DNA from: Lineus longissimus
Lineage: Eukaryota; Nemertea; Pilidiophora; Heteronemertea; Lineidae
Length of the DNA: 64,000 bases
NCBI RefSeq assembly: GCF_910592395.1
Contig: NC_088321.1
Coordinates: 5,768,001 to 5,832,000 of the forward strand
Direction of reading: 5' to 3'
Shown here piece after piece: positions 8,614 through 36,730 of this stretch. Position 1 is the stretch's first letter; every line of letters starts with the position of its first letter. The notes under the pieces were generated by a model. The model was not told where the DNA came from, did not search any database, and worked only from the letters and a program-made list of their open reading frames with translations. The position numbers and the translations under genes were made by a program.

Positions 8614-8651
8614 CAGTAGAACCTCTCTATTAAGGACACCCTCGAGACTTC
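8614..8651. mobile_element. MITE fragment (CAGTRGAACCTC family)
   Basis: CAGTAGAACCTCTCTATTAA followed by GGACACCCTCGAGACTT is the first 38 bp of the family; the rest is missing. Confidence 0.6.
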
Positions 8652-9146: not shown

Positions 9147-9291
9147 CAGTAGAACCTCTCTATTAAGAACACCCTTGGGACTGCAAAGTACTGTCCTTAA
9201 TAAAGAGGTGTCCTGATTAGAGAGGTCAAATTGAATGGAAACAACCAATTTGGGACCAAAACTAGTGTCCTTAATAGAGAGGTGTCCACTG
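9147..9291. mobile_element. Complete short MITE, TA-flanked (CAGTRGAACCTC family)
   Basis: It starts CAGTAGAACC, ends GGTGTCCACTG, and TA lies directly outside both ends (9145-9146, 9292-9293). At 145 bp it lacks one of the internal GTCCTTAATAGAGAG blocks of longer copies. Confidence 0.75.
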
Positions 9292-9888: not shown

Positions 9889-9967
9889 CGATGTCTCGAA
9901 CTTATATTGCAAAAACGTCACTTGAGGCAGTAGGGCATTCTGTAGAGACATAATGTTCTTGATTTTA
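9889..9967. repeat. Displaced copy of the kinase exon 1 donor region (about 80 bp)
   Basis: This stretch matches 10201-10279 almost base for base (TGTCTCGAACTTATATTGCA, GTCACTTGAGGCAGTAGGGC). On the minus strand the real exon 1 ends TTTCGA|GTAAGAT and the copy reads TTTGAA|GTAAAAT. A MITE (9978-10153) lies between the two copies. Confidence 0.85.
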
Positions 9968-9977
9968 CTTCAAATTA

Positions 9978-10153
9978 CAGTAGAACCTCCCTTAGCGGAC
10001 ACCTCCCTATTAAGGACAACCTCTCTATTAAGGACACTAGTTTTGGTCCCAAATTGGTTGTTTCCATTCAATTTGACCTCTCTAATCAGGACACTTCTAT
10101 TAAGGACAGCACTTGTCAGTCCCGAGGGTGTCCTTAGTAGTGAGGTTCTACTG
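9978..10153. mobile_element. MITE of the CAGTRGAACCTC family next to kinase exon 1
   Basis: It starts CAGTAGAACCTCCCTTAGCG and ends GGTTCTACTG. TA precedes it (9976-9977); TC follows instead of TA, so one flank has changed. It lies between the duplicated donor copies and probably took part in, or followed, their duplication. Confidence 0.75.
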
Positions 10154-10278
10154 TCATGAGTTTTTGGTGCCTAACCTACCTATCAAACCATCAAAAGTCG
10201 ATGTCTCGAACTTATATTGCAAAAACGTCACTTGAGGCAGTAGGGCATTCTGTAGGGACATAATGTTCTTTATCTTAC

Positions 10279-11053
10279 TCGAAACCACCAGTAACCGCGG
10301 TGGAAAATCGGCGCGGCTTCCCTGACGATCGTACTTCAGCGACCGCGATCGCGATAACACAACCTCGGCATGCTCATTATCATAAATGCCCTGATCGCTA
10401 TGCTGTCCGTTGGAATCGCTGCGCTGACGACGCGGGCTCACAAACACCGCCCCGCCATCAGAATAACTCCTCGTGTGTTCCTTGACTAACTTTTCTTTCT
10501 GATTTCTCGCCGCAGTCTGTCCGCTTACAGGACGCTCTTTGCCAATATTTTCCGAGTCCGGCTCAGACTTATTTTTCCTGTGTTCCGTATTCGTCTGATT
10601 ATTGCCACCCTTACGATCCGCGCTGTTCTGCTGTTCAATCTCTCCCTGCGCGGATATATTCGTGCGTCGGTCCGCCTCCGCTTCCCGACCGAGTCTCTCG
10701 CGTTCCTGAGTCGTTTCGTCGCGAGCATTGTCCACATCCTGATCACCACTCGTGCAGTCACCCGCCCCATTCCTTGGCACCTCCTCCTCAGGATTCCTCC
10801 GAGTCCGACCTTTCTTCTCACCACTACCGACTGAATCCACCGCTTTCTCGCACTTTGAAATCGGCTCACTCCCCGCCTCCTTTGATTTCACCCGCTCCGT
10901 TTTCCCTCGATTTTCCGAATACCCACTTTCACCATCTTTGACGTTAACTCTGGAACCACTGGAATGCCCATGTCTTCGCTTCTTCTCTTTTGATCTATTC
11001 TGGGATTGCTCTGGTGGTCCAGGCCCACCTGTAACATCCCTGGAGTCTGCCAT
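10279..11053 (-). CDS. Exon 1: disordered N-terminus of the caspase-fold/NEK-like protein
   Basis: Encodes residues 1-258, beginning MADSRDVTGG. I chose the ATG at 11053 because its context is AACATGG. The open frame runs about 19 codons further upstream but only to a GTG, so the true transcript start is unknown. The sequence is rich in Arg, Lys, Glu, Ser, Asn and Gly, with no membrane segment or recognisable fold, which suggests a disordered or nuclear/cytoskeletal tail. The last residues (RLLVVS) already look like the first strand of the following caspase-fold domain. The exon ends in phase 1 at a GTAAGA donor; the A left over joins GT of exon 2 to make Ser. An 80-bp copy of the donor region lies at 9889-9967. 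Confidence 0.85.
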
Positions 11054-12000
11054 GTTGATGACAACGGCGTTCCAGGACTTGGCTTTTGCTTTGTTTGTTA
11101 AGGACGGCACAAGTGTCAGGTCATCACAGTTGCATGCTCACGTCAGCAGTGTCCTAGAGATTCTGAAGGAACAATCATATTCAATTAGCCTACAATTATG
11201 TACAATCAATCATGTTAATCACATCGCCATCAACTATAATTTTAAAAGGTTACGCCACTCGTAATTACTCGTGGTCCAGTTAAATAGAAATTCACTAATC
11301 ACACAATGCTGTGGTGCAGTTATTGCCAGAGCCCTCTATTAAAAACTGTGTACATTACGTGTACATTGTTTGTTCATAAGTTTTGGTAAAAAAAGTACAC
11401 CTTGGACCAATCAATCTGCACAAAATTTTATATGTGTCAAGAAGAACCCTTTGCTATAGTATAATAAAGTTTCAAAACAATCCAATACCGATTGCCTGCG
11501 AAAAAATGATTTCCGTACACCATATCCATCAAAACGTCACTGACGCATTGATATGGCGCTGTCAAAATACAAGTTTTAACCTGACCAGTGAGACCACATT
11601 TTCTTAAATATATTATCAAAAAGCATATTTCTGTGATGGCCTGACGCTGTAGATTAAGAATCAACCACAGATTGAGAATTAATTCCACTTTGGTCCATCC
11701 CAGCCATGTGTTTACCACAACTTGACATTTTAATAAGCTCTATGTAACTGTGCACACTTCCGTTTGTGGATGAATACACGTCTCTGCCCTAGTATTATGA
11801 GTACAAATTTGTTTAAACTTGGTATTCATAATATCTGTATATCAGTCTTCACAACGGCAATGTCGAAATTTATATTTAGTACGTATTTCCGGAATTAGAC
11901 ATTTTAAAATTTTAACCTGTAAGCAGCGTAGTTTTTTATTTGTTAACCGCGTCATATCGTGTAATTGATTAGATTACACATCCTCATCTAACAGCCGCTT
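11054..12000. promoter_or_regulatory. Upstream region of the kinase gene; dispersed repeat copy, no clear core promoter
   Basis: This is the 5' flank of the minus-strand kinase gene. No TATA box or initiator stands out. From about 11240 to 11900 lies the second copy of the repeat seen at 956-1300, interrupted at about 11340-11790. The region's role as promoter follows only from position. Confidence 0.3.
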
Positions 12001-12565: not shown

Positions 12566-12727
12566 ATTGACTAATTGAGACATCTAGGCTTCGACATTTT
12601 TTCAAACTTAATCAATAACTCTGTGTGATTGGGAGTTTGACATGATGACTGGTGTGTGATTTAACTGTAAATGAATGCGAAATGACTTTTTTGTAACTTT
12701 TTTTGTTTTTCTTTGAATGCCATCTCA

Positions 12728-13153
12728 ATACTTGACTTGCCAAACTCAGAAATGCAGCGCCACTCGCGGACAAAGATAGAACAACTCGACATTTTTTTCA
12801 CCGGTTTTCGCTGCGCATGCTTACCAGCCGTCATCTTTCGCGGCGACGGACGAGAAAAACAACTGTTCTACACGCAGTGAAAGCAAATTCACACAGGTAA
12901 ACTGGTTATAACTGTGGTACGTCTGTTTCTTAACACGTAATAGTTATCAGATTGCTAAATTATCTTAAATCATGAGCCTTAAAGAACTTTTTGAACTCTC
13001 AAAAACTTACACAAAACAAGTTCAGATTGCCGCCATTATTAGTTTCCGGATGGCTGGTACGCATGCGCAGCGAAAACCGGTGAAAAAAATGTCGAGTTGT
13101 TCTATCTTTGTCCGCGAGTGGCGCTGCATTTCTGAGTTTGGCAAGTCAAGTAT
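12728..13153. mobile_element. TIR element with about 110-bp arms, TA-flanked; carries NRF1-like sites
   Basis: The left arm from CTTGACTTGCCAAACTCAG and its reverse complement ending at 13153 agree over about 110 bp, with TA just outside (12729-12730, 13152-13153). The arms contain GCGCATGC / GCATGCGC, the core of an NRF1 site, plus GCAGCGCCACTCGCGG. The TA target and foldback form suggest a Tc1/mariner-type MITE. It lies in the divergent interval between the two genes. Confidence 0.75.
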
Positions 13154-13822
13154 TTTCCTTAGATACGCCCAAAACATTTAATTTCTGGCGAAATCTTTTG
13201 ATGAAAAAACATATACTCTTTCTCTTCATATGGTTATTCTCCAAAATTTCGTTCTCTAGAAGGTAAAATATTACAAAAGAAACCGAAAAATTTGTACCTG
13301 TCAAAGTTTGGCTTCCATCTTGTTTTTTAGTTCATAAAAAAATTCTGGGAGGCGCTCGCAGTGAAAGCCGACAGATGGTGCACAAGTGCATCCGGTTTTT
13401 TCGGAGTTTGGATTTGTTTATAAAATTTCCTCCGCACTTCCGCTAGTTTTGTCGTTATTATTGGTCAGATTCTACTGAAAATTGTTTAATTGTATTCATA
13501 AAGGTATAAAGGTATACACTACTAATGACTTATGCCGAATATACAGTGAGTACTTAGTTAACTGGTGCTGGTCTAAAATTTTCTAAGTCCATAATAGGTC
13601 ATTATAATATGCATTTTAGGCCCAGATGGGTTGTGCAGGGCCTACATTCCTTTTGAGAAGCATGAATGGGCTAATAATGACAACTTGAGCCTACTGCACA
13701 TGTCGGCATTGATACCTATTGACTATGATCACTTTCATCAAGTACTCAGAAAGTTTTAATAGCTTGAAATCCGACATGCAGAAAGTCCATCCAAGACACA
13801 CCATCACTGGCCAGTGCTTTTC
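13154..13822. other. Intergenic, no feature recognised
   Basis: AT-rich unique sequence. I see no exon, tRNA or clear repeat. Confidence 0.4.
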
Positions 13823-14562
13823 GGTCTACCTAATGCGCGTCCGGAACAATTTGTGCGTCCGGAGCGCGTCCGGAAGAGAAAGTGCGCGTCCGGAACAATT
13901 TCCTATGTAAATATGAACCTAATGTTGCATTAGATGGCTTAAATAGCATTTTAATTCCATGTAGAGAAAATAAAATTGGAAAAAATCTCCTTGGTGACTT
14001 TGTATTTTACAATTTTCAGCGGGGTGATTTGGGTGTTACACAGCCATCAAATCCCAGTTTACTGACGTTTCTCCTCAACAAATTGTTGTTGCAGTTGCAG
14101 AATTTCGATAGTAGCCGTGTTGTAATGGATTAGACTGGTATCTGGTGTCTCAGCACATGGAATGAATTTTGTTGACCCCCTTCCCCCGCCCCCTCGATCC
14201 CCTCCCCTCCCCCCTAAAAGCGCAAATTGGCTTCACAATAATTGCTATTGCCCCTTATCCCACGGCACGCAAAGACAAACTCATACCGACTTAGACGACC
14301 ACAACAGGAGAAGGCGCGTAAGGAAGTTAGGATATGAGTATGGCATTAGTAATTAACCACCTCGCTGAAAATTGTAAAATACAAGTCACCAAAAAGATTT
14401 TTTTCAATTTTATTTTCTCTACATGGAATTAAAATGCTATTTAAGCCATCGAATGCAACAATAGGTTCATATTTACATAGGAAATTGTTCCGGACGCGCA
14501 CTTTCTCTTCCGGACGCGCTCCGGACGCGCAAACAGAGTTCTGGACGCACATTAGGTGGACC
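13823..14562. mobile_element. TIR element of about 740 bp with about 210-bp arms
   Basis: The left arm (GCGCGTCCGGAACAATTT, then TATGTAAATATGAACCTA and ATTTTAATTCCATGTAGAGA) is mirrored at 14350-14562. GCGTCCGGA blocks are repeated within each arm tip. The centre has no transposase ORF, so it is non-autonomous. The target duplication is not clear. Confidence 0.75.
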
Positions 14563-15979: not shown

Positions 15980-16121
15980 ATGGATCCAGCATTGCTGAAG
16001 GAGAGAGAAGCTTTCAAAAAGAGGGCGCTAGCACAACCATCAGTCGAAAAGAGAAAGGCCCAGAAAAGAACTGAAAATGATCGCAGCACGAAGAAGGCAC
16101 GGCCAGCGCCAAAACCTAAAG
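15980..16121 (+). CDS. GTF2E2: GTF2E2 exon 1: N-terminal basic region
   Basis: 142 nt, residues 1-47 plus 1 nt, beginning MDPALLKEREAFKKRALAQP. The human start is MDPSLLRERELFKKRAL. The rest is Lys/Arg/Ser-rich, shorter than the human Ser-rich linker. The ATG lies directly behind a TTTTTCTAG acceptor, so the 5' UTR is spliced. The donor is AAG|GTAAGC, phase 1. This donor is copied 165 bp downstream (16286). Confidence 0.95.
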
Positions 16122-16452
16122 GTAAGCACCCTACCCTTGACAGCCTCATACTTACTTAGGGCTCTTCGTCCCTATTGGCACATAAGGCCACAACACAACC
16201 TCCAGCCTTTTCAGTCTCTTGCTGCCCGTTGTGCCTCGTCCCATGTCAGCCCCATCAGTTTCAGCTCCTTTGACATAGTCCTCCTGGTAAGCACCTACCC
16301 TTGACAGCCTCATACTTACTTGAGGCTCTTCGTCCCTCGTGGCACATAAGGCCACAAGACAACCTCCAGCCTTTTCAGTCTCTTGCTGCCCGTTGTGCCT
16401 CGTCCCAGGTCAGCCCCATCAGTTTCAGCTCCACTGACATAGTCCTACTCCA
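16121..16452 (+). repeat. 165-bp tandem duplication that includes the exon 1 donor
   Basis: Copy A (16121-16285) starts with the real donor GGTAAGCACCCTACCCTTGA. Copy B (16286-16452) starts GGTAAGCACCTACCCTTGA and then follows copy A with few differences through CATCAGTTTCAGCTCC. The left breakpoint falls at the exon/intron junction. Copy B therefore carries a usable-looking donor without an exon. Confidence 0.92.
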
Positions 16453-16689
16453 TTTGACTTTGGGCCAGCCTCGTTTGTTCTTTCCCTGGGGGGCTCAAAT
16501 GCAGGGCAGTCTTTGGTATGCTGCTTGGATTCATCCAGAGGACATGTCTAAGCCATCAAAGTCTGCAGCATCCGATTACGTCGGCAACGTTAGAACTCTA
16601 GATCTGCGTCAGCTGACGGATCGGAGAGCTTCATTAGAGATTATCCTTGGCCAGAACACTTGGCAGATCCATCGCAGACACCTGTTTGA

Positions 16690-17175
16690 AAGCCTCATAG
16701 CCTAGTGGTTGATAAAAGTACTGCGGGTTACCACGAAATTCGGCCCAGATTCGGAACCCAGGATTTGTGTTCTCGATGAACCGTTGTAGATTTAAGGAAC
16801 TAATATTCCTGACTCTTCACAGTCATTCGAATAAGACTTGACAAAACACCCGAGTGAGAATATTTCGTTATCATAATGGATAATGTAGCCTTTATCATTT
16901 GATATTTCATTTGATATGTTTTAGAATAGAAATTGATACCTCACTGTCGGTATTGATTGTTTCACAAAAACCGCTCGGATGGAGCTTAAATATTGGCTAT
17001 GGTTTTGGTCTACATTTTAGCTCCACCCTCGCGGTTTCGGTGAGACAACCAATACCTCCAGTTCAGTATCAATTCCTTGAAGCCAAAGCTCCTAGTATCT
17101 GGTATTTACGCCAGGGCAAGTAAAAGTCCCCACCAAGTGAGAAACATGAGTAGCTGGCGTGGACTTCCCTCCTTT
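16690..17175 (+). mobile_element. tRNA-derived SINE interrupted by a foldback element
   Basis: The head (GCCTCATAGCCTAGTGGTTG) and body (GGAACCCAGGATTTGTGTTC) match the SINE at 17645-17900. The tail (GCCAGGGCAAGTAAAAGTCC, CACCAAGTGAGAAACATGAG) resumes after about 17080. The interruption includes the inverted-repeat element 16930-17079. Confidence 0.65.
16930..17079. mobile_element. Foldback MITE, about 150 bp
   Basis: ATTGATACCTCACTGTCGGT and TTTCACAAAAACCGCTCGGA are mirrored by ACTGGAGGTATTGGTTGTCT on the other strand of 17025-17079. The arms are about 55 bp and the centre about 40 bp. It sits inside the SINE. Confidence 0.65.
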
Positions 17176-17451
17176 GGCCAAAAGACCGAGGGCATAATGG
17201 TCAGTATGATGGCCGCGTCCAAGTGTTAACCAGTTCAACCAGAACATCAAGATTCAAACAGACTCGAAGGCTGTGAAAGAATTTTGAAGGCCAAGTTTGC
17301 ATGAAAGTTTAAGCCTAATGATTTTCATAGCTTTGCTCGTTGGCCGAAAACAGAAAAGTTTTTGAGTGGCTGTTTTAGTTTTGGTCTAATTGCAGCTAAA
17401 AATGTTTATGAGTTGAGCCTTTCAGTGAGTTTACTGTTTTATTCATTTCAG

Positions 17452-17531
17452 CCGATTTTAACTACAAGGCAATGCAAGGAAGTTCACAGTTTAAGTTTGG
17501 AATATTGGCAAAAATAGTTAAATATATGAAG
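17452..17531 (+). CDS. GTF2E2: GTF2E2 exon 2: start of the first winged-helix region
   Basis: 80 nt, residues 48-74 (ADFNYKAMQGSSQFKFGILA, then KIVKYMK). The human counterpart is [25 protein letters not shown]. Acceptor ATTCATTTCAG, donor AAG|GTAAGA; it enters in phase 1 and leaves in phase 0. I find no copy of either splice site nearby. Confidence 0.96.
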
Positions 17532-18895
17532 GTAAGATAAGAATACTAATCACTTGGTTTCGTTGACTGTTTTTTCCACCAGGACAAAAGTACCGAAAAG
17601 TGTTTTGCCGCTTAAGTAAAATAATCAAGTATGTGCAAATTTGAATAAAGGAGCCTTATAGCTGAGTGGTGAACTCCGACTACCACTCAAAAGGCCCCGG
17701 TCGATCCCGGCGAGAACCCAGGAGTGTATTTCTGGATGAACCGGTGTGGCTTTCAAGGAACGAAAATTACCGGCTCTCCACAGTCCTTTGAATGAGATGT
17801 AAAACCGAGGTTCCTTGAATCTGGTGTCTATGCCAGGGCAGGTTACAGACTCCACCAAGTGAGAAACATGAGTAGCTTGCGTGGACTCTACAGGGCTGCC
17901 TAACCTTACACATTTGGGGGAAATCTCACACACAGGCCTGTTTACACTTAGTTAGGGCCATTTTACACTTTGACTCCAGAAAATGTCTTTAAAATTGTGC
18001 CGAAATCATCAGAAGACCCAACAATGACATTTCCCTTGCTGATTTACACTTTTTCACCGAGGGTTTTAGTTTTACACATTGCTGGACGAAGGCAGTTGTG
18101 ACACTCCCTCCGGCCGAAGTCTGGAGTCACTAGGCCTTGCCGAAGTCGTAGTCACTAGACCAATAAACCCAACTGGCACCTAACCATACTGGCACGCATA
18201 AACGCTTATCCTGCCTTGGAGGAGGAATACTCCGTGGAGAAAATCACCTCCAAGTGCAGAGCAAACGCCCTGGAAGGGGAAGGATAGAAGAAGGGATATT
18301 GGATTCCATCAAATTGGATATTGTGATGCGATTTTGGGCTGCACTCACCCTGTTTCTGCCCCTCTCATGTTCGAATTTGCTCACAATGAAAAAGAAATCC
18401 CCATCTGATAGGCTCATATAGGCCAATAGAACTTCAGGTGACTTCTTCAATCATAAAATTAACTCGATTTTTGAAGAATATCTCATTTTCCTCTCCATCG
18501 GAAAATAGAAGTTGTCCTTTAAAGAAATCAATCAGCAGCAGCTAGGTAGGTTAGAAAAAGCTACACAAAGTCCTTAATAGGTGTCCCTCCAATCTCATCG
18601 TACATCAAAACTATTCACGCTTGTGCGAGGAATGTTATAGTGCTGTGTCAAACATTACCAGAATTATCGGAATTCAGGAATACCAGACGACTTGGAACCT
18701 GACTTGGCACTCAATGCCGGGAATTCAGGATTTTGAATCAGCAGAGTTTGCCCTGATGACGCCAGCGTCGACACTGATGAAACATAGGCCTACCCGATAT
18801 GAGTTGTTTTTCTCAGTGATTCATTCCTAACTTATTGAAACGTTCCTAGAGATTGCATTGTCAAACTCGTGTATCGTCCGCTTTTAATATTTCAG
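17532..18895 (+). other. GTF2E2 intron 2: a SINE (17645-17900), otherwise unassigned
   Basis: A plus-strand tRNA-derived SINE starts GAGCCTTATAGCTGAGTGGT with B-box-like GGTCGATCCC and ends near TGCGTGGACTCTAC. The rest (17900-18895) has no clear repeat or exon. One TIR-like pair may lie at 18090-18200 (GAAGTCTGGAGTCACTAG / CGAAGTCGTAGTCACTAG), which is actually a direct repeat. Confidence 0.5.
17645..17900 (+). mobile_element. tRNA-derived SINE, near complete
   Basis: It has a tRNA-like head (TAGCTGAGTGGTGAACTC; GGTCGATCCCGGCGAGAACC) and a body shared with the interrupted copy at 16690-17175 (GAACCGGTGTGGCTTTCAAG, CCACCAAGTGAGAAACATGA). An inner MITE present in the other copy is absent here, so this is a natural empty site. 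Confidence 0.65.
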
Positions 18896-19003
18896 CAACG
18901 GCATCAACAGGGAGACACTTATCCATTATCAATTGATGACATTCTTGACGAAACAAATCAACTTGATGTCGGAGCACGGCATAAACAATGGCTATCGACC
19001 GAG
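18896..19003 (+). CDS. GTF2E2: GTF2E2 exon 3: winged-helix region, donor copied into a tandem array
   Basis: 108 nt, residues 75-110, phase 0 at both ends. It encodes [20 protein letters not shown], then [16 protein letters not shown] (human: [20 protein letters not shown] ... QKQWLMTE). Acceptor TAATATTTCAG, donor GAG|GTAGGT. The last 16 nt plus donor are unit 1 of the array that follows. Confidence 0.97.
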
Positions 19004-20911
19004 GTAGGTTGTTTCCTCCCACTGTTCACCCTCCTCCAAACTCACTTTATCCCTGGTACCATCAGGGCAAGACCAATATACTGATATTTGATGAAATATG
19101 GCTATTGACCGAGGTAGGTTGTTTCCTCCCACTGTTCACCCTCCTCCAAACTCACTTTATCCCCGGTACCATCAGGGCAAGACCAATATACTGATATTTG
19201 ATGAAATATGGCTATGGACCGAGGTAGGTCGTTTCCTCCCACTGTTCACCCTCCTCCAAACTCACTTTATCCCCGGTACCATCAGGGCAAGACCAATATA
19301 CTGATATTTGATGAAATATGGCTATCGACCGAGGTAGGTTGTTTCCTCCCACTGTTCACCCTCCTCCAAACTCACTTTATCCCTGGTACCATCAGGGCAA
19401 GACCAATATACTGATATTTGATAAAATATGGCTATCGACCGAGGTAGGTTGTTTCCTCCCACTGTTCACCCTCCTCCAAACTCACTTTATCGGAGCACAT
19501 CAGGGGGGCGGACGCGCTGCTTGCTTTTAAACGACTCCTAAAATCCTGGCTGTTCGAGGAAGCATTTCTTGGTGGGGAGGTAGCGCCTTGAGCAGGTTTA
19601 CCTGGAGTTTGGCGCTCTATAAGACATTGTTGATTGTTGATTGATTTATCCCTGGTACCATCAGGACAAGACCAATATACTGATATTTGATGAAATATGG
19701 CTATCGACCGAGGTAAGTTTCCTCCCACTGTTCACCCTCCTCCAAACTCACTTTATCCCTGGTACCATCAGGGCAAGACCAATATACTGATATTTGATGA
19801 AATATGGCTATCGACCGAGGTAAGTTTCCTCCCACTGTTCACCCTCCTCCAAACTCACTTTATCCCTGGTACCATCAGGACAAGACCAATATACTGATAT
19901 TTGATGAAATATGGCTATCGACCGAGGTAAGTTTCCTCCCACTGTTCACCCTCCTCCAAACTCACTTTATCCCTGGTACCATCAGGACAAGACCAATATA
20001 CTGATATTTGATGAAATATGGCTATGGACCGAGGTAGGTTGTTTCCTCCCACTGTTCACCCTCCTCCAAACTCACTTTATCCCTGGTACCATCAGGGCAA
20101 GACCATTATACTGATATTTGATGAAATATGGCTATGGACCGAGGTAGGTTGTTTCCTCCCACTGTTCAACCTCCTCCAAACTCACTTTATCCCTGGTACC
20201 ATCAGGGCAAGACCATTATACTGATATTTGATGAAATATGGCTATGGACCGAGGTAGGTTGTTTCCTCCCACTGTTCACCCTCCTCCAAACTCACTTTAT
20301 CCCTGGTACCATCAGGGTAAGACCATTATACTGATATTTGATGAAATATGGCTATCGACCGAGGTAGGTTTCCTCCCACTCTTCACCCTCCTCCAAACTC
20401 ACTTTATCCCTGGTACCATCAGGGTAAGACCAATATACTGATATTTGATGAAATATGGCTATCAACCGAGGTAGGTTATTTCCTCCCACTGTTCACCCTC
20501 CTCAAAACTCACTTTATCCCTGGTACCATCAGGGCAAGACCATTATACTGATATTTGATGAAATATGGCTATCGACCGAGGTAGGTTTCCTCCCACTCTT
20601 CACCCTCCTCCAAACTCACTTTATCCCTGGTACCATCAGGGTAAGACCAATATACTGATATTTGATGAAATATGGCTATCAACCGAGGTAGGTTATTTCC
20701 TCCCACTGTTCACCCTCCTCAAAACTCACTTTATCTCCGGTACCATCAGGACAAGACCAATATACTGATATTTGATGAAATATGGCTATTGACCGAGGTA
20801 GGTTGTTTCCTCCCACTGTTCACCCTCCTCCAAACTCACTTTATCCCTGGTACCATCAGGGCAAGACCAATATACTGATATTTGATGAAATTCTTGTTGA
20901 GACCAACCAAT
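18988..20911 (+). repeat. 107/110-bp tandem array carrying 15 copies of the exon 3 donor
   Basis: Units start with ATGGCTATCGACCGAG followed by GTAGGT or GTAAGT. Starts are at 18988 (real exon end), 19098, 19208, 19318, 19428, 19697, 19804, 19911, 20018, 20128, 20238, 20348, 20455, 20565, 20672 and 20782. Each unit also has a pyrimidine-rich stretch (TTCACCCTCCTCCAAACTCA) leading to CCATCAG, an acceptor-like site. The final partial unit reads into sequence encoding FDEILVETNQ, resembling exon 3. Three units (donors after 19712, 19819 and 19926) have GTAAGT, a better consensus than the genuine site. Confidence 0.97.
19491..19644 (+). mobile_element. 5'-truncated LINE tail inserted into the array
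   Basis: The array text CTCACTTTAT is interrupted and resumes as TTTATCCC, so TTTAT is duplicated on both sides (19486-19490, 19645-19649). The insert encodes the end of a reverse-transcriptase-type protein in one frame (DALLAFKRLLKSWLFEEAFL, then GGEVAP and stop at 19589). It ends in a TTGATTG repeat tail. This fits a CR1/L2/RTE-type LINE with a short-repeat 3' end. Confidence 0.75.
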
Positions 20912-21116
20912 GTAAGGTCACCCTCACCCTGCACACCACCCCTCCCTTGGGTCATCTTCTGCATCTCATGAGGATACGGGCCATCCATTGAGTATGTACG
21001 TACTGAGCGGGGAGACGGTTTAGGAATTTTGGGGAAAATGCGTACAGCTGTAAATTTTGTCCAAATTGTGTGTACAAGGGGAGGGGTCTCAAAATCCCAA
21101 GTTTGATGCGTACATA

Positions 21117-21276
21117 CAGTGGAACCTCCCTTAGCGGACACCTCTCTATTAAGGACACTAGTTTTGGTCCCAATTTGGTAGTTTCTATTCAATTTGACCT
21201 CTCTGATCAGGACACCTCTCTATTAAGGCCAGCACTTGCCAGTCCCGAAGGTGTCCTTAATAGAGAGGTTCTACTG
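21117..21276. mobile_element. Complete MITE, TA-flanked (CAGTRGAACCTC family), intron 3
   Basis: It starts CAGTGGAACCTCCCTTAGCG and ends GGTTCTACTG, with TA at 21115-21116 and 21277-21278. 160 bp. Confidence 0.8.
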
Positions 21277-21896
21277 TACTTAATGGATGGCCCCATACTG
21301 GTATCAAGAGCCTTTCGAATCCAGCACCCAAAATATGATTCTGGGCCAGATGACCATCCATGAGCATGAATGTAGTATAGGACTGAAAAGCCTGTAAGAC
21401 CTGGGTACAAGGTATTTTTAAAGTGGTCTGCATCCGCAAACTGTGCGTGATATAACGCTGAAAATGCGGGATATTGATGATAGATACATGATCTGATAGA
21501 TGTTAAAGCGAAATGTTTATATCAATACTGGTTTGGCAGTAATTCTTCAAAACACCACGAAAACGATATTTCCTCTCAATCAACTAGACTTTGATGTTTT
21601 CACCCCAAATCTTGGTTCAGTACTCAGACTGACATTGTCTTCCATGTCATCAAGAAAATTTTCAAAAAATGTTGATATTTTGAGAACATGTCCAAGTTGT
21701 CATTTTGCAATATTTGGAAGAATAAATGGTTAATTAGCGTTGATATCGATATCTCACTTAGCATCAATCAGATTATGTATCTATCATCATTACGTTCCAA
21801 AATTTTCAGCAACATAATGGAAGAGTTTTGGCTCCACTTACCACTGTGCATGCGCATGGTGAATCTCTTTTCACCAGGAAAAAACTGAAGCTATTA
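21277..21896 (+). other. Intron 3, unassigned
   Basis: Short open frames only. GTGCATGCGCATGG near 21845 is an isolated NRF1-like core. No exon signature. Confidence 0.4.
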
Positions 21897-22116
21897 CAGT
21901 GGAACCTCCCTTAGCGGACACCTCTCTATTAAAGATAACCTCTCTATTAAGGATAACCTCTCTATTAAGGACAACCTCTCTATTAGTATTAAGGACACTA
22001 GTTTTGGTCCCAAATTGGTTGTTTCCATTCAAATTGACCTCTCTAATCAGGACACCTCTCTATTAAGGACATCACTTGTCAGTCCCGTTGGTGTCCTTAA
22101 TAGAGAGGTTCTACTG
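21897..22116. mobile_element. Complete MITE (CAGTRGAACCTC family), source of part of the exon 4 duplication
   Basis: It starts CAGTGGAACCTCCC and ends GGTTCTACTG, TA-flanked, with an extra run of CTCTATTAAGGATAACCT blocks (220 bp). Its right half (from CAGGACACCTCTC) is part of the 188-bp unit repeated up to exon 4. Confidence 0.8.
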
Positions 22117-22612
22117 TACATCGGTGTCGTGAAAAGGTCAGATAGGGACCTGGAATGTAAAGTGCCACCTCGTTTGCTGATCAAAATATGAACCTCTCGA
22201 ATGTCTCGTAACCCTTGTAGGCCCTCGTCAACAATCAGGACACCTCTCTATTTAGGACATCACTTGTCAGTCCCGTTGGTGTCCTTAATAGAGAGGTTCT
22301 ACTGTACTTCGTAGTCTTGAAAAAGTCAGACAGGGACCTGGAATAGAAAGTGCCACCTTGTTTGCTTATCAAAATCTGAACCTCTCTAATGTCTCGTAAC
22401 CCTTGTAGGCCCTCGTCAACAATCAGGATACCTCTCTATTAAGGACATCACTTGTCAGTTCCGTTAGTGTCCTTAATAGAGAGGTTCTACTGTACTTCGA
22501 AGTCTTGATAAAGTCAGACAGGGACCTGGAATATAAAGTGCCACCTTGTTTGCTGATCAAAATCTGAACCTCTCTAATGTCTCATAACCCTTGTAGGCCC
22601 TCGTCAACAATC
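22033..22612 (+). repeat. 188-bp tandem triplication containing the exon 4 acceptor and first exon bases
   Basis: CCCTTGTAG|GCCCTCGTCAACAATC occurs three times: AG at 22219-22220, 22407-22408 and 22595-22596. Only the third continues into exon 4; the first two pass after AACAATC into the MITE text AGGACACC or AGGATACC. The shared AATC at the breakpoint (TCTAATCAGG in the MITE, AACAATCCC in the exon) suggests a microhomology-mediated tandem duplication. Both upstream acceptors keep an intact AG and pyrimidine tract. Confidence 0.95.
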
Positions 22613-22782
22613 CCAAGATCAACGTCGTGGATGACAATAAGTTTGTCTTCCGCCCGAAGTATAACATCCGAGACCGGAGGGGGTTAATGCGATTGCTGGA
22701 GCGAAATGACCTGAAAGGATTGGGCGGTGTTTTGATGGACGACGTCGAAGAGGCTGTGCCGAAATGTGGGCGAGTTATTCAG
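22597..22782 (+). CDS. GTF2E2: GTF2E2 exon 4: winged-helix core
   Basis: 186 nt, residues 111-172, phase 0 both ends. It encodes [40 protein letters not shown] and GLGGVLMDDVEEAVPKCGRV. The human protein reads [25 protein letters not shown] and GLGGILLEDIEEALP. Donor CAG|GTAGGC. This is the most conserved exon of the gene. Confidence 0.98.
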
Positions 22783-22816
22783 GTAGGCGCCGAGCTGACA
22801 CGAGTGTCCTCTTTAA

Positions 22817-22947
22817 CGCTATAACACCTAGAGCCAGCGCAAGGGCTTATTCCCCTTGGCCCCGACTTTATTTTACCTGGAAATCATGTTTTTTTCTCCA
22901 GTGAGATCGACGGCGGTTGTCACCGGGCGCCTCCAGGTGTTATAGGG
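22817..22947. mobile_element. Small piggyBac-type MITE, TTAA duplication
   Basis: It starts CGCTATAACACCTAGAG and ends CTCCAGGTGTTATAGGG (17-bp terminal inverted repeat with two mismatches). TTAA lies at 22813-22816 and 22948-22951. 131 bp, in intron 4, 35 bp past the exon 4 donor. It is a different family from the 5629-5926 element. Confidence 0.8.
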
Positions 22948-23285
22948 TTAAGAAACTCTCTAACAAGTTTATGCTGCAATAGACACCAACCTAGCATCTT
23001 CCATTGATGTCCATTGCAATATTACAAATTCAGTTTTTTTTTGCAAACTTCTCTACAGGCTCATGCTGCACCCGAATGCCACCAACCTTAATTCGAATGC
23101 TCTATTAAATCACGGAGTTCAAGCATACCGTGCTATACACCCAAGTGAAGATTCCATTGATCATGTTCTCAGTTATTCAGAGTACTTCATAACACTCGGG
23201 TATGTTTTTGTATCGCTATACACCAACAAGTTAAAATGTATGTTTGTTCATCCTGAATATGAAGGAGGCAATAATTGGTGGAGCC

Positions 23286-26270
23286 CCTGAAATAAGGCCC
23301 AGGTTTGATCCCCTTCTCAAGGAACAGTGTGGTCAACACTGCTTCCTACCCTGCAATAAGGCCCGGGTTTGATCCCCTTCTCAAGGAACTGTGTGGTCAA
23401 CACTGCTTCCTACCCTGCAATAAGGCCCGGGTTTGATCCTCTTCTCAAGGAACTGTGTGGTCAACACTGCTTCCTACCCTGCAATAAGGCCCGGGTTTGA
23501 TCCCCTTCTCAAGGAAAAGTGTGGTCAACACGGCTTCCTACCCTGCAATAAGGCCCGGGTTTGATCCCCTTCTCAAGGAACTGTGTGGTCAACACTGCTT
23601 CCTACCCTGCAATAAGGCCCGGGTTTGATCCCCTTCTCAAGGAACTGTGTGGTCAACACTGCTTCCTACCCTGCAATAAGGCCCGGGTTTGATCCCCTTC
23701 TCAAGGAACAGTGTGGTCAACACGGCTTCCTACCCTGCAATAAGGCCCGGGTTTGATCCCCTTCTCAAGGAACTGTGTGGTCAACACTGTTTCCTACCCT
23801 GCAATAAGGCCCGGGTTTGATCCCCTTCTCAAGGAACTGTGTGGTCAACACGGCTTCCTACCCTGCAATAAGGCCCGGGTTTGATCCCCTTATCAAGGAA
23901 CTGTGTGGTCAACACTGCTTCCTACCCTGCAATAAGGCCCGGGTTTGATCCCCTTCTCAAGGAACAGTGTGGTCAACACTGCTTCCTACTCCGCAATAAG
24001 GCCCTGGTTTGATCCCCTTCTCAAGGAACTGTGTGGTCAACACTGCTTCCTACCCTGCAATAAGGCCCAGGTTTGATCCCCTTCTCAAGGAACTGTGTGG
24101 TCAACACTGCTTCCTACTCCGCAATAAGGCCCTGGTTTGATCCCCTTCTCAAGGAACTGTGTGGTCAACACTGCTTCCTACCCTGGAATAAGGCCCGGGT
24201 TTGATCCCCTTCTCAAGGAACTGTGTGGTCAACACTGCTTCCTACCCTGCAATAGATCCGGGTTTGATCCCCTTCTCAAGGAACTGTGTGGTCAACACTG
24301 CTTCCTACCCTGCAATAAGGCCCGGGTTTGATCCCCTTCTCAAGGAACTGTGTGGTCAACACTGCTTACTACCCTGCAATAGATCCGGGTTTGATCCCCT
24401 TCTGAAGGAACTTTGTGGTCAACACTGCTTCCTACCCTGCTATAAGGCCCGGGTTTGATCCCCATCTCAAGAAACTGTGTGGTCAACACTGCTTCCTACC
24501 CTGCAATAAGGCCCGGGTTTGATCCCCTTCTCAAGGAACTGTGTGGTCAACACTGCTTCCTACCCCGCAATAAGGCCCGGGTTTGATCCCCTTCTCAAGG
24601 AACTGTGTGGTCAACACTGCTTCCTACCCCGCAATAAGGCCTGGGTTTAATCCCCTTCTCAAGGAACTGTGTGGTCAACACTGCTTCCTACCCCGCAATA
24701 AGGCCCGGGTTTGATCCCCTTCTCAAGGAACTGTGTGGTCAACACTGCTTCCTACCCCGCAATAAGGCCCGGGTTTGATCCCCTTCTCAAGGAACTGTGT
24801 GGTCAACACTGCTTCCTACCCTGCAATAAGGCCCGGGTTTGATCCCCTTCTCAAGGAACTGTGTGGTCAACACTGCTTACTACCCTGCAATAGATCCGGG
24901 TTTGATCCCCTTCTTAAGGAACTGTGTGGTCAACACTGCTTCGTACCCTGCTATAAGGCCCGGGTTTGATCCCCATCTCAAGAAACTGTGTGGTCAACAC
25001 TGCTTCCTACCCTGCAATAAGGCCCGGGTTTGATCCCCTTCTCAAGGAACTGTGTGGTCAACACTGCTTCCTACCCTGCAATAAGGCCCGGGTTTGATCC
25101 CCATCTCAAGAAACTGTGTGGTCAACACTGCTTCCTACCCTGCAATAAGGCCCGGGTTTGATCCCCTTCTGAAGGAACTGTGTGGTCAACACTGCTTCCT
25201 ACCCTGCTATAAGGCCCGGGTTTGATCCCCATCTCAAGAAACTGTGTGGTCAACACTGCTTCCTACCCTCCAATAAGGCCTGGGTTTGATCCCCTTCTCA
25301 AGGAACTGTGTGGTCAACACTGCTTCCTACTCTGCAATAAGGCCCGGGTTTGATCCCCTTCTCAAGGAACTTTGTGGTCAACACTGCTTCCTACCCTGCA
25401 ATAAGGCCTGGGTTTGATCCCCTTCTCAAGGAACTGTGTGGTCAACACTGCTTCCTACCCCGCAATAAGGCCTGGGTTTGATCCCCTTCTCAAGGAACTG
25501 TGTGGTCAACACTGCTTCCTACCCCGCAATAAGGCCTGGGTTTGATCCCCTTCTCAAGGAACTGTGTGGTCAACACTGCTTCCTACCCCGCAATAAGGCC
25601 CGGGTTTGATCCCCTTCTCAAGGAACTGTGTGGTCAACACTGCTTCCTACCCCGCAATAAGGCCCGGGTTTGATCCCCTTCTCAAGGAACTGTGTGGTCA
25701 ACACTGCTTCCTACCCTGCAATAAGGCCCGGGTTTGATCCCCTTCTCAAGGAACTGTGTGGTCAACACTGCTTCCTACCCTGCAATAAGGTCCGGGTTTG
25801 ATCCCCTTCTCAAGGAACTGTGTGGTCAACACTGCTTCCTACCCTGCAATAAGGCCCGGGTTTGATCCCCTTCTCAAGGAACTGTGTTGTCAACACTGCT
25901 TCCTACTCTGCAATAAGGCCCGGGTTTGATCCCCTTCTCAAGGAACTTTGTGGTCAACACTGCTTCCTACCCTGCAATAAGGCCCGGGTTTGATCCCCTT
26001 CTCAAGGAACTGTGTGGTCAACACTGCTTCCTACCCTGCAATAAGGCCCGGGTTTGATCCCCTTCTCAAGAAACTGTGTGGTCAACACTGCTTTCTACCC
26101 TGCAATAAGGCCCGGGTTTGATCCCCTTCTCAAGGAACTGTGTGGTCAACACTGCTTCCTACCCTGCAATAAGGCCCGGGTTTGATCCCCTTCTCAAGGA
26201 ACGGTGTGGTCAACACTGCTTCCTACCCCGCAATAAGGCCTGGGTTTCATCCCCTTCTCAAGGAACTGTG
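23286..26270 (+). repeat. 64-bp minisatellite, about 46 units
   Basis: The unit is CAATAAGGCCCGGGTTTGAT, CCCCTTCTCAAGGAACTGTG, TGGTCAACACTGCTTCCTAC plus CCTG. Nearly all units are 64 bp, and variants such as CAATAGATCCGGG and CTATAAGGCCC recur in blocks that show larger duplications. This fills most of GTF2E2 intron 4. The unit does not resemble a splice site or exon of the gene. Confidence 0.97.
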
Positions 26271-26559
26271 ACCGATGGGACTGGTCATGTGTGGCCGTGG
26301 TGGGGTAAAGGAAGGAAGAACTGCAAATATAGTGGTTTGAAATGTATGATAGCAGCTCTTGGCATAAGGTATAAATGGACTGGCATTGAGCGATAGGGGT
26401 CAAGCCCTGAGAAGGCCTTGAATTACGTAAGTTGGAATAAAGGAGAGAATGAGAAGAACTAGATTGTGCTGCCATCTAACTTTATGCAGCACAACTACAA
26501 TGCAAATAATTTAGAGGGATACTAGAAGATTCTCCAACAGAACTAACATTCCTGGCTCA
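26271..26559 (+). other. Intron 4 between arrays, no feature recognised
   Basis: Unique sequence of about 290 bp. Confidence 0.4.
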
Positions 26560-26887
26560 GCACACTTTGGTCCTAAATTGGTTGTTTCCATTCAATTTGA
26601 CCTCTAATCTGAAGAACTCTCTATTAAGGACACTAGCTTTGGTCCCAAATTGGTTGTTTCCATTCCATTTGACCTCTCTAATCTGAAGAACTCTCTATTA
26701 AGGACACTAGCTTTGGTCCCAAATTGGTTGTTTCCATTCAATTTGACCTCTCTAATCAGGACACCTCTCTATCAAGGACACTAGCTTTGGTGCCAAATTG
26801 GGAGTTTCCATTCAATTTGACCTCTCTAATCTTGACACTTCTCTACTTGTCAGTCCTGAGGGTGTCCTTAATAGAGAGGTTCTACTT
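26560..26887. mobile_element. Rearranged MITE (CAGTRGAACCTC family) with internal triplication
   Basis: The block TTTGGTCCCAAATTGGTTGT + TCAATTTGACCTC + CTCTATTAAGGACACTAG occurs about four times before the normal end GAGGTTCTAC. The starting CAGTRGAACC is missing. Confidence 0.65.
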
Positions 26888-26937
26888 TGGATTGTCTAAA
26901 CTTCACTTGATCTTGCGCTTCGATAAATCTGTCTGAA

Positions 26938-27355
26938 TTCTGTTCAGTCTTACTTTCTACCACAATTTCTCATGAATTGAAAGCCTGTTCAATCTTACTT
27001 TCTACCACAATTACTCATGAATTGAAAGCCTGTTCAATCTTACTTTCTACCACAATTTGTCATAATATTACTTTCTACCACAATTTCTCATGAATTGAAA
27101 GCCTGTTCAATCTTACTTTCTACCCCAATTGCTCATGAATTGAAAGCCTGTTCAATCTTACTTTTTTCCACAATTACTCATGAATTGAAAGCCTGTTCAA
27201 TCTTACTTTCTACCACAATTTGTCATGAATTGAAAGCCTGTTCAGTCTTACTTTCTATCACAATTTCTAATGAATTGAAAGCCTGTTCAGTCTTACTTTC
27301 TATCACAATTTCTCATGAATTGAAAGCCTGTTCAATCTTACTTTCTACAGCAATT
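26938..27355 (+). repeat. 45-bp minisatellite running into the exon 5 acceptor
   Basis: The unit is TGTTCAATCTTACTTTCTAC, CACAATTTCTCATGAATTGA, AAGCC; starts are at 26941, 26986, 27031, 27104, 27149, 27194, 27239, 27284 and 27329. The last unit contains the real acceptor CTTACTTTCTACAG|CAATTG, while all other units read CTTTCTACCACAATT or CTTTCTATCACAATT and lack the AG. The array therefore repeats the acceptor region, but only the exon-adjacent copy is a working site. Confidence 0.93.
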
Positions 27356-27447
27356 GGGCAGCCAAATCACCAAAATCATGCGACCCGCCGATAAAAAAGA
27401 AATCCTCTTCTACAACGATAAGAGCTTTGACTTCACAGTTGACGAGG
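27351..27447 (+). CDS. GTF2E2: GTF2E2 exon 5
   Basis: 97 nt, residues 173-204 plus 1 nt: QLGSQITKIMRPADKKEILF, then YNDKSFDFTVDE. Human reads [31 protein letters not shown]. Donor GAGG|GTAAGG, phase 1. The acceptor lies at the end of the 45-bp array. Confidence 0.96.
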
Positions 27448-27561
27448 GTAAGGACACTCTAATTGCTCAGTGGTTCTCATTTGCATAGGAAAGCTTTGGG
27501 TTTTCAAAGTACTATGAGTCTGATATCAAGTACAGTTTGTTTGCTTGTTTTTTCCAACTAC

Positions 27562-28700
27562 AGTAGAGGTTGTCATCTAGTTTCGTTTCTCAACCACCAA
27601 AGCTATGAGCTTGAAACTTGGTACATATAACCCCCTATATCATATAACCTCTGGTGCTGAATTTCAGCCTGATCTGATTCTTGACTTTGCCACCAGGGGG
27701 CCAAAACAGAAAAAGTAAGAAGTGCAATAGCCTGCTTATTAGCAAATTGTTTTTGATGAAATTTTTATGGCAGGGACCCCTAGCAAGGTTACCTCAGATG
27801 TTGCACAATTTTTTGGATTTGACCTACTTTTTAAGGTCGCAGAGGTCAAATGGCGTAAATTTGTCGTTTGAGTGTAACTATGGCACGTTTCTCAACCGCA
27901 ACAGTAATGAACTTGAAACTTTGAACAAATGACCCCCTAGGTCAGTTGACCTTTTACACTGAATTTTGGTTCGGTCTGATTATTGACTTGGCCACCAGGG
28001 GGCCCAAACTCAAAACTCAAAAAGTGTGATTTCTCGCTTATTACTGATTTGTTTTTGATAAAAGTTTCATGGTAGGTACTCCGAGCAAGGATACATCACA
28101 TATCTTACGGGTTTTTGATTTGACCCACCTTTCAAGTTCACAGAGGTCAAAGTTGAAAACTTTACCGTTCTTGGTACGTTTTGTCGTTGTTCAATGTAAA
28201 GAGTTTTAATTTTGTGTAATGATGCATCTAAGAAGCCACTATTTGTATGCCAAGTTTCAGCCAGATCGGAACTCAAATATGGCCGAAATTGCATGTTTTG
28301 TGGGTTTTTCCTCGTATTGTGGCAATCCAAAGGTCGTGAGTTCAAACCCCGGTCAAGGACAGCCAAAAATATTTTTATTTTTCATCTTTTCCTTTTTTCT
28401 TTTCTGAGTTCTATCTTACATTTTCTTCATTTTTTGATTTATTTGGTGCCATAGATTTAATCAGGCGGCCATCTTGGAAATCGTTTTTTGCCGATTGCTG
28501 TAGTGTAACGAGTGATGAAATTGTTATGGTCAGGTGGATGTGTCTACATCACATATCACCCTGGTTTGCATATGACCTACCTGTCGGGGTCACTGAGGTC
28601 AAAGTTAAAAATATATTCACCATTGTCATACTGTAGCACTTTCTGTAACTGTCTACTAAAAATACTTACGGTGAGCACAATGGCCCCTGGCCGTTTCATT
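27562..28700 (+). repeat. Copy of the about 300-bp-periodic dispersed repeat (CTCF-like motif family), intron 5
   Basis: It contains the periodic blocks CGTTTCTCAACC, GAACTTGAAACTT, CCACCAGGGGGC (27690 and 27992), TGATTTGACCCACC and AGAGGTCAAA. Its end reads GGTGAGCACAATGGCCCCTG. The usual start GCTCACC and CGT tract are missing. A tRNA-like stretch (GGTCGTGAGTTCAAACCCCG, about 28331) near its 3' part may be a nested SINE head. Confidence 0.75.
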
Positions 28701-28805
28701 TGAGAAGTTTTACTTGTGGCACTATAAAATACAATGAAGACAACAGTGTAGGCCTTTCACTACAAGACTACAATGCCCTTTCAAAATGTTCTGCTTTTTA
28801 TTCAG

Positions 28806-28921
28806 AATTTATAAAATTATGGCGAGGCGTGTCCGTAGATGGGGTAGATGAAAATAAGATAGATGAGTACCTGGACCAGCGGGGAATCACTACCATGCAA
28901 GACGTCGGAGCAAAAACTGCA
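28806..28921 (+). CDS. GTF2E2: GTF2E2 exon 6
   Basis: 116 nt, residues 205-243: [20 protein letters not shown], then [19 protein letters not shown]. Human reads [32 protein letters not shown]. Acceptor TTTTTATTCAG, donor GCA|GTAAGT, phase 1 in and 0 out. A second, weaker copy of the donor region starts at 29031. Confidence 0.97.
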
Positions 28922-29130
28922 GTAAGTTCCAATGGGTGGTGCATAACTGATGGAACAGCCCTGATGTATTGTTATGTAATGGTATGTGTATGCCGCAAGG
29001 CTGTTCCAAGGTATGAACTGCATCCTGTGGCAAAGGTTGCGGTAGCTTCAATGGGTGGTGTATAACTGATGGAACAGCCCTAATGTATTGTTATGTAATG
29101 ATGTGTATGCCGCAAGGCTGTTCCGAGAAA
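28911..29130 (+). repeat. Tandem duplication (about 120 bp) including the exon 6 donor
   Basis: The first copy begins in the exon (CTGCAGTAAGTTCCAATGGG) and the second begins at 29031 (TTGCGGTAGCTTCAATGGG). Both continue ATAACTGATGGAACAGCCCT and TATGCCGCAAGGCTGTTCC. The second copy's donor has decayed from GTAAGT to GTAGCT. Confidence 0.92.
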
Positions 29131-29174
29131 TTTGTGTCACCCACAGTCATTGATGAAAATGTACACCCACACTC

Positions 29175-29465
29175 ACTGCTCACTCTCGCAACTTGACAGT
29201 TCTATTTTGTAGTTGATCTCACTGGTTTCTATGCGCTGTGGGAGGTAGTTAGCCTTTCCACAGCCGGCCAGTGGGAGGGGCTGCCTCCTATTGATCCACA
29301 GCCAAAGCTGGTGTTATGGTCAGAGTGTCCGTCACTGCTCACTGTTCTATTTTGTAGGTGATGTCACTGGTTTCTATGCGCTGTGGGAGGTAGTAAGCCT
29401 TTCCACAGCCGGCCAGTGGGAGGGGCTGCCTCCTATAGATCCACCGCCAAAGCTGGTGTTATGAT
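29175..29465 (+). repeat. Direct duplication of about 150 bp, intron 6
   Basis: TTTCTATGCGCTGTGGGAGG, CCTTTCCACAGCCGGCCAGT and CCAAAGCTGGTGTTATG occur twice, with the first copy starting near 29180 and the second near 29335. Confidence 0.9.
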
Positions 29466-29544
29466 TTGAGTGTCCTTCTCTCGTGCTCGCTACCATCACT
29501 TAGTTGGAGAGCACAGTCTAACCAGGTGGTGTCCGTCCGCAAAA

Positions 29545-29660
29545 ATCATTATAAGAGATCAGCTTCAGTACGATACTACCAGTGGCGGCACATGGTGGCT
29601 GACAGAGGTATTATCCTCCTGGCCAGGTGATTACCAGGCCCAAGTCGTCTCTTTAACACA
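29545..29660 (+). repeat. Dispersed repeat with a second copy at 30245-30360
   Basis: ATACTACCAGTGG, then CTGGCCAGGTGATTACCAGG here and CTGGCCAGGTAATTTCCAGG there. The two copies flank the last GTF2E2 exon. They are divergent (about 75% by eye), so dispersed copies rather than a recent duplication. Confidence 0.6.
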
Positions 29661-29697
29661 CCCCTTCCATTACTGATAATGTCTTCCTCTGTTTCAG

Positions 29698-29808
29698 GCT
29701 CCAGTACAGAAACGAAAACGAAAAGGTGGCAATCGAAAAAAGACATTCAAATCACACAACGACCATTTAGGAAACTTGTTAGAAGACTATTCAAACGTGG
29801 ACAAGTGA
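29698..29808 (+). CDS. GTF2E2: GTF2E2 exon 7: basic C-terminal tail and stop
   Basis: 111 nt, residues 244-279 and stop: APVQKRKRKGGNRKKTFKSH, then NDHLGNLLEDYSNVDK. The human end is [24 protein letters not shown] and LKDYSDITSSK. Acceptor CTCTGTTTCAG. The basic stretch followed by an amphipathic helix is typical of TFIIE beta, where it contributes to nucleic-acid binding. Confidence 0.97.
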   Translation, partial: APVQKRKRKGGNRKKTFKSHNDHLGNLLEDYSNVDK

Positions 29809-35685: not shown

Positions 35686-36730
35686 CGTCGTCCGTCGTCC
35701 GTTAGCAGGGCACGTTTCGTAACTGTTAGAGCTATTGAGTTGAAACTTGGTAGACATGTACCCTTATGTAATGACACCTTGGAGACCAAGTTTCGGTCCG
35801 ATTCGTTTCATGGTTTGGCCACCAGGGGGCCAAATGTTAAAAGTGAAAATATGTAATATCTCCCTTAATAGTAGTCGGGAAATTTTGAAAAAAATATGGT
35901 AGGTACTTCTAGCAAAGGTGCATCATATATCCTCCGGGTTTTTGATTTGACCTCCTTTTCAAGGTCACAGAGGTCAAATGGTGTAAATTGGCCGTTAGGA
36001 TGTAACGATGGCACGTTTCTAAACTGCAATGACTATTGATACCAAATTTGGTACACATTTACCCCTTAGTCAGGTGATCTCAGGGACCAAAGTTTGGTCC
36101 AATATGATTCACCACTTGACCACCAGGGGGCAAAATCCAAAAACCTTAAAAATGTGATTATTCCTTAACTTCTTGCCCGATTGCCACCAATTTGATATCA
36201 TGGGTACATCTAACCACCATACAGTATATGTCACACAGGTTTTTAATTTGACCTTCTTGTCAAGGTCACAGCGGTCAAATGGCGTAAATTCGCTGTCAGG
36301 CCGTAACTATGGCACGTTTCTTAACTGCAATGACTATTGATCACAAATTAAGTACACATGTACCCCTTGGTCAGGTGATCTCAGGTACCGAAGTTTGGTG
36401 CGATCTGATTTGCCGTTTGGCCTCCAGGGAGGGGGCCAAATCCTAAATTCTTCAAAATGCCATTATTCCTAGTAATGACTTGCCCGATTGGCACCAATTT
36501 TATATCATAGGTACATCTAATTCTAACAACCATTCAATGTGTCACCCGGGTCTTCTTTGATTTGACCTACTTTTCAAGGTCACAGAGGTCGAATGTACTG
36601 TAAATTGGCCATTTTGGGGAAATTGTAATTGCTTGGACCTACATCAAACCTAACACTACATGACACAATACCATGCTCTTTATCCATCTTTCCTCCACAT
36701 GAGGTGAGCACAATGGCCCTGGCCATTTCA
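35568..36730 (+). mobile_element. Complete copy of the 300-bp-periodic repeat (CTCF-like family), 3-bp TTA duplication
   Basis: Comparison with unit 1 (34471-34480, GTTTTTATGT) gives exact borders. The insert starts GCTCACCTCTTAGCAGAGGT and ends GGTGAGCACAATGGCCCTGG + CCATTTCA. TTA is present on both sides (35565-35567, 36731-36733). It begins with a GCTCACC...GGTGAGC hairpin, then a long CGT tract, then about 3.5 repeats of a 300-bp unit. There is no long ORF. TTA target duplication would fit PIF/Harbinger-type integration, but the ends are not inverted repeats. Confidence 0.85.
35608..35705. repeat. CGT trinucleotide microsatellite
   Basis: About 30 units of CGT with interspersed CCGT. It is part of the standard start of this repeat family (also at 62790-62858). 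The poly-Asp and poly-Ser frames it creates are not genes. Confidence 0.95.

Follow-up and report, generated by a model that had tools for sequence, protein, structure and literature searches.

Mirages and related duplications

The closest described counterparts of the repeats considered here are the 'mirages' of lancelets, minisatellite-like tandem duplications that lie over exon–intron boundaries, at donors as well as acceptors. We describe arrays of this kind in GTF2E2, the housekeeping gene for TFIIE-beta, of a ribbon worm (Nemertea), carried on a stretch of 64,000 nucleotides (nt) that was analysed as a whole and is called the window below. The literature drawn on below comprises PMC3087553, PMC3902484, PMC8593623 and PMC4974935. 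Lancelet mirages are reported in Adh3, in the globin genes BflGb6 and BflGb9, in troponin C and in PGBD5. Their units reportedly measure 10–160 bp, many copies are reported to retain AG or GT signals, and regular splicing is reportedly undisturbed; for PGBD5, PMC3902484 gives mirages of 60 and 108 bp and cites troponin C and Adh as well.

The GTF2E2 arrays share with these the placement over exon–intron boundaries and the involvement of both donors and acceptors, and their unit lengths (45–188 bp) are close to the lancelet sizes. They differ in occurring in a nemertean and at five borders of a single gene, and in that one array sits inside the relic of an exon duplication, another lacks the AG, and a third has a unit as long as 188 bp. 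Two other systems bear comparison. As in tandem exon duplication, intron 3 of GTF2E2 holds a diverged copy of exon 3 on the same strand, although only 71 of the 108 nt of this copy are recognisable, its own splice sites are not kept and there is no evidence of its use. In the Rogers model of intron gain by tandem duplication, a duplication that crosses a border yields spare splice signals, and according to PMC4974935 an intron of the potato RdRp gene was gained through duplication across an intron–exon border; spare signals are found in GTF2E2 too, but they lie inside existing introns and no new intron was identified.

Among the matches listed from the open-licence literature, none concerned 'mirage' arrays outside lancelets, and none was recognised by its title and the opening of its abstract as describing such arrays in nemerteans or lophotrochozoans. 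What we see is a known kind of repeat in another animal group and not a new mechanism; newly seen here are mirages in a nemertean gene, and many of them within one gene. We think it probable that the GTF2E2 arrays are mirages in the lancelet sense, that is, minisatellite-like tandem duplications of ordinary origin whose units straddle exon–intron borders.

Arrays at the splice sites of GTF2E2

GTF2E2 lies on the + strand with a coding span of 15980–29808, divided into seven coding exons (15980–16121, 17452–17531, 18896–19003, 22597–22782, 27351–27447, 28806–28921 and 29698–29808) of 279 codons plus a stop, and all six introns have GT–AG borders. The 279-residue product matches Pfam TFIIE_beta, with residues 63–134 forming the core-domain match, and a Lineus longissimus protein, identical to it at 277 of 279 positions, is its top match in the database. 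The window therefore probably comes from this species or from one very closely related to it. We note that both residue differences from this protein fall in exon 5 (182 M for T and 190 I for V), the other exons being identical. Tandem arrays make up 54 % of the gene and 27 % of the window.

Self-comparison at offsets of up to 700 bases found nine local arrays within GTF2E2. In five of these an outer edge meets a splice junction, and the other four touch no exon. Array edges thus fall within 15 nt of five of the 12 coding splice sites, at distances of 0 nt (exon-1 donor), 15 nt (exon-3 donor), 15 nt (exon-4 acceptor), 5 nt (exon-5 acceptor) and 11 nt (exon-6 donor); the exon-3 value becomes 22 nt under wider merging. 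Each of the five edges coincides with the border or lies on its exonic side, and for the remaining seven splice sites the nearest edges are 91 to 1,082 nt away. Both kinds of border are affected, namely the donors of exons 1, 3 and 6 and the acceptors of exons 4 and 5. The units span the border, those at exons 3, 4 and 6 carrying 12–16 exonic nt and those at exon 5 carrying six, and the exon-1 unit starts on the last exon base. Unit lengths of 45–188 bp hold for donors and acceptors alike.

At the exon-1 donor (16121–16449, + strand) two copies of about 164 bp are 93.9 % identical, and a second copy starting at 16286 supplies one extra donor at 16287. The exon-4 acceptor array (22045–22612, + strand) consists of three copies of a 188-bp unit, in which the terminal part of a dispersed repeat is combined with the acceptor and 16 nt from the start of the exon, and it provides two additional acceptors, both intact. 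The exon-6 donor is duplicated once (28910–29127, + strand; 120-bp spacing, 88 % identical, 12 exonic nt included), which yields a single extra and weaker donor at 29042; like the exon-1 case, it comprises two copies only. A longer exonic reach of this duplication was considered and is unsupported, as 732 of 1,000 shuffles did equally well. The exon-5 array (26940–27356, + strand) has a 45-bp unit that takes in the first six nt of the exon and repeats the pyrimidine tract along with the initial exonic bases. It copies no acceptor, because the AG is absent from all nine other copies, which read CTACCAC, CTATCAC, CTACCCC or TTTCCAC in place of the CTACAG found at the exon.

An earlier, sequence-only reading of this DNA had proposed that five of the 12 splice sites are copied into the adjacent intron, each with a breakpoint close to the exon border. 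Its extra donors of exons 1 and 6 and its two extra exon-4 acceptors are borne out by the arrays described above. The five edges do lie 0–15 nt from splice sites, but the exon-5 array, which reaches the exon, duplicates no AG. Its 15 copies of the exon-3 donor are present as well, although that array grew within an older duplication of exon 3 and its first breakpoint lay elsewhere, as described in the next section.

Two arrays without exon contact serve as comparison cases from the same gene, a 64-bp minisatellite of 46.7 copies in intron 4 (23285–26270, + strand) and a 145-bp duplication in intron 6 (29196–29481, + strand). Both copies of the latter contain TTCTATTTTGTAG (at 29200 and 29345), which resembles an acceptor but has no exon beside it. 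The dispersed element of which a piece is included in the exon-4 unit has ends like ACAGTAGAACCTC and GAGGTTCTACTGTA, which occur at nine and ten places on the + strand with no more than two mismatches, for example at 338, 4181, 9977, 21116 and 21896, and at 21265, 22105 and 26876.

The exon-3 array and a relic of exon 3

The array of the exon-3 donor (18988–20891, + strand) has its left edge inside exon 3 and holds 15 extra donors of the form GAGGTA[AG]GT beside the genuine one. Within each unit, 16 nt from the 3′ end of exon 3 and the donor are separated by a short gap from some 44 nt of homology to the 5′ portion of that exon. Turnover is evident from the mixture of 107- and 110-bp units, a higher-order period of 217 bp and identities between units of 91.6–100 %. 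After the fifth donor a unit is broken by about 150 bp of foreign sequence (about 19492–19644); this sequence ends in TTGTTGATTGTTGATTGA and may be a short interspersed element.

The similarity to exon 3 continues ungapped past the last unit, at the distal end of the array, for 71 nt in total. This diverged relic (20849–20919, + strand) aligns ungapped to 18900–18970 with 46 of 71 positions identical. It scores 54.5. The 2,056 overlapping segments taken from elsewhere in the window, on both strands, score 38.5 at most, and none of 2,000 dinucleotide shuffles equalled the relic. When a profile built from homologues was run in six frames the relic ranked next after the seven true exons, with an E-value of 0.21. 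Intron 3 therefore contains a second copy of exon 3 on the same strand, without preserved acceptor or donor at the places homologous to the exon ends. No relics of the other six exons stood out in the GTF2E2 introns (best sense scores 27.5–35.5, antisense control at most 36.5), and a further control with six of the seven exons of a neighbouring kinase gene, its long first exon being left out, gave a best of 37.5.

Mismatches between the relic and exon 3 number 9, 4 and 12 at codon positions 1, 2 and 3, which fits coding constraint; we do not use this as evidence, because silent changes in exon 3 itself would yield the same bias. The relic codes E at a residue where exon 3 of the window codes D, and among 120 proteins, which include the L. 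longissimus one, 111 have E, seven have D and two could not be read at this position. Although this is a single residue, E in the relic fits a duplication that would predate an E-to-D change. The exon-3 array grew later, within an older duplication of the exon, and the first breakpoint lay off the border, because the units hold 5′ exon-3 homology that runs on into the diverged copy.

The array has an arrangement that could be taken for a series of small exons. In 14 of the 15 units CATCAG is followed by a stop-free stretch of 48 nt in the phase of exon 3 and then by GAGGTA[AG]GT, so that an AG precedes and a GT follows an open stretch that would encode 16 residues, in close variants among the units. 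The stretch is 48 nt long in all 14 of these units even as the intronic part varies by 3 nt. Were the units in-frame cassette mini-exons, TFIIE-beta would be extended by multiples of 16 residues. The splice signals of the array, however, sit away from the homologous ends of exon 3, and an insertion after residue 110 would interrupt the TFIIE-beta core-domain match. The L. longissimus protein of the database shows the plain splice pattern without the mini-exon peptide, and the repeated peptide had no match at E-values up to 10 in 2,731 candidate proteins, a set clustered at 90 %, in which an isoform with a single insertion might go unseen. Variable columns number six of 48 in the exon-like part and eight of 62 in the intronic part (Fisher P 1.0), so that the former is not the less variable and unit variability gives no sign of selection on mini-exons. 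Use of the units as exons is thus unlikely on present sequence grounds, and we give very little credence to a cassette function. For the earlier suggestion that selection has retained duplications that keep splice sites working, we find no direct evidence.

Excess of array edges near splice sites

Edges near splice sites were compared with a null in which arrays of fixed number and length were placed at random within the gene and sites within 22 nt of an edge were counted. As GTF2E2 was chosen post hoc for its pattern, the resulting P values overstate the case, and the array sets were partly set by hand and differ between tests. The shuffle of GTF2E2 alone used nine arrays, with the exon-4 array trimmed to 22045–22612 and the exon-3 edge at 18981. 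It gives 0.68 sites expected against five observed, P(≥5)=0.00025 and P(≥4)=0.0021, which become 0.0006 and 0.011 when placements over a whole exon are disallowed. With the array set of the two-gene shuffle described below, P for GTF2E2 alone varies with the permitted distance, being 0.015, 0.0002, 0.0012 and 0.013 at 5, 15, 30 and 50 nt. The pattern of border arrays in GTF2E2 exceeds the shuffled-placement null.

The neighbouring gene, on the minus strand at 168–11054, was used as a local control; from our reading of its kinase motifs we presume it to be a NEK-like kinase gene, of which the window holds seven 5′ exons in a continuous frame, with a long N-terminal part ahead of the kinase domain. 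None of its 13 splice sites lies within 22 nt of an array edge; the shortest distances are 32, 46 and 55 nt. The two-gene shuffle used ten arrays of GTF2E2 and five of the NEK-like gene, with the exon-3 pieces joined from 18988 and 21925–22045 split off, and at 22 nt gave P(≥5)=0.0051, P(≥4)=0.027 and P(≥3)=0.12. For the observed total in both genes, P is 0.039, 0.0019, 0.021 and 0.013 at 5, 15, 30 and 50 nt. With the exon-3 and exon-5 cases removed three remain, and the two-gene P is then 0.12 at 22 nt and 0.055 at 15 nt.

These figures leave some room for the clustering being plain coincidence in a repeat-rich gene, noticed because it was looked for. The share of the gene and of the window that is in tandem arrays speaks for coincidence, as does the P of 0.12 for three cases over two genes, but shuffles that preserve array number and length still give P of 0.0001–0.005 for five cases at 22 nt. 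We hold coincidence to be possible rather than probable; it would explain only the clustering and does not conflict with an ordinary origin of the mirages, so the weights that we give to the two overlap.

A process focused on exon–intron junctions would account for the excess differently, with, for example, breaks tied to transcription or splicing, R-loops or nucleosome edges making splice-site duplications in this lineage. It would agree with five of 12 sites against 0.68 expected, with five of five edges being exonic or at the border and with like cases in several lancelet genes, but less with the empty record of the NEK-like gene and with two of the five cases (exons 3 and 5) being weaker once inspected. 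Motifs that resemble donors or acceptors away from real sites are not enriched at the edges of 26 arrays of the window (one array running past the window end was excluded); 0 of 6, 1 of 6 and 1 of 23 lie near an edge, the background share of positions being 4.6 %, though these numbers are low. Bare AGGT lies near an array edge at 27 of 345 places (7.8 %), above background, but dispersed repeats in some arrays contain AGGT.

No motif is common to the junctions between copies. At exon 4 the junction has a 4-nt microhomology, AATC, common to exon 4 and the dispersed repeat, that of exon 6 has about 19 nt of filler, and those of exons 1 and 3 have no clear microhomology. Such mixed junctions fit ordinary tandem duplication and repair, and not one site-specific enzyme, and the differing kinds of junction also speak against a process focused on splice sites, which on balance seems to us unlikely. 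The sequence-only reading, which had offered such a process as one of two possible causes and had held that duplications should rarely include a boundary by chance, was right as to the excess of edges in this one hand-picked gene; of the process itself there is no direct evidence.

Proposed origin

The ordinary origin that we favour for the GTF2E2 mirages would begin with the duplication of short segments through the usual chemistry of tandem duplication, by slippage or by joining with microhomology or filler, after which unequal exchange would alter copy numbers. At exon 3 an older duplication of most of the exon would have come first. A 110-bp duplication would then have taken in the final 16 nt of exon 3, the short gap and part of the exon-3 copy, and would afterwards have been multiplied. 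The outer flanks of a tandem duplication are unaltered, so that the authentic site would still stand beside its exon and the new copies would fall in the intron. Splicing would presumably continue from the authentic copy, and the duplications may be nearly silent because the authentic junction remains adjacent to its exon; the arrays would then be close to neutral and minisatellite turnover free to act. The arrays and their edges, the exon-3 relic, the mixed junctions, the plain database protein and the equal variability of the two unit parts all support an ordinary origin.

Several points weigh against it. The five edges exceed random placement in GTF2E2 (P 0.00025), and plain chance does not explain well why every one of them lies at the border or in the exon. 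Of the 15 extra exon-3 donors, three agree with the U1 consensus at eight of nine positions, against seven of nine for the genuine donor. The profile match of the relic is not significant by itself.

Tandem arrays are difficult to assemble, and for lancelets a draft is reported to have been mis-assembled at one mirage, while the copy number at another differs between two sources. That the duplications seen here are assembly artefacts is nevertheless highly improbable. The copies have differences of their own (about 6 % at exons 1 and 4, 12 % at exon 6 and 0–8 % among the exon-3 units), and the published L. longissimus assembly, if it is the source of the window, was reportedly built on 79-fold PacBio long reads with HiFi libraries.

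Other repeats in the window

A 131-bp minisatellite of 17.6 copies (6191–8494) has an edge 46 nt from the acceptor of the third exon of the NEK-like gene. Intergenic inverted repeats at 13850–14533 and 12727–13154 have arms of 151 nt (96 % complementary) and 106 nt (98 %) respectively. Tandem repeats of about 301 bp are found at 27584–28151, 35709–36595, 40407–41298 and 62872–64000, with neighbouring copies 74–82 % alike.

Significance

We think it improbable that a process tied to transcription or splicing steers the tandem-duplication breakpoints of this nemertean to splice junctions and that mirages are a recurrent class of mutation in animals; if this were so, mirages would be a source of spare splice sites and mini-exons and, in time, of new introns. 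Their occurrence in a protostome suggests that mirages may be a general by-product of genomes rich in tandem repeats and not a peculiarity of lancelets, and intron gain, shifts of exon borders and mini-exons could plausibly draw on them as raw material.

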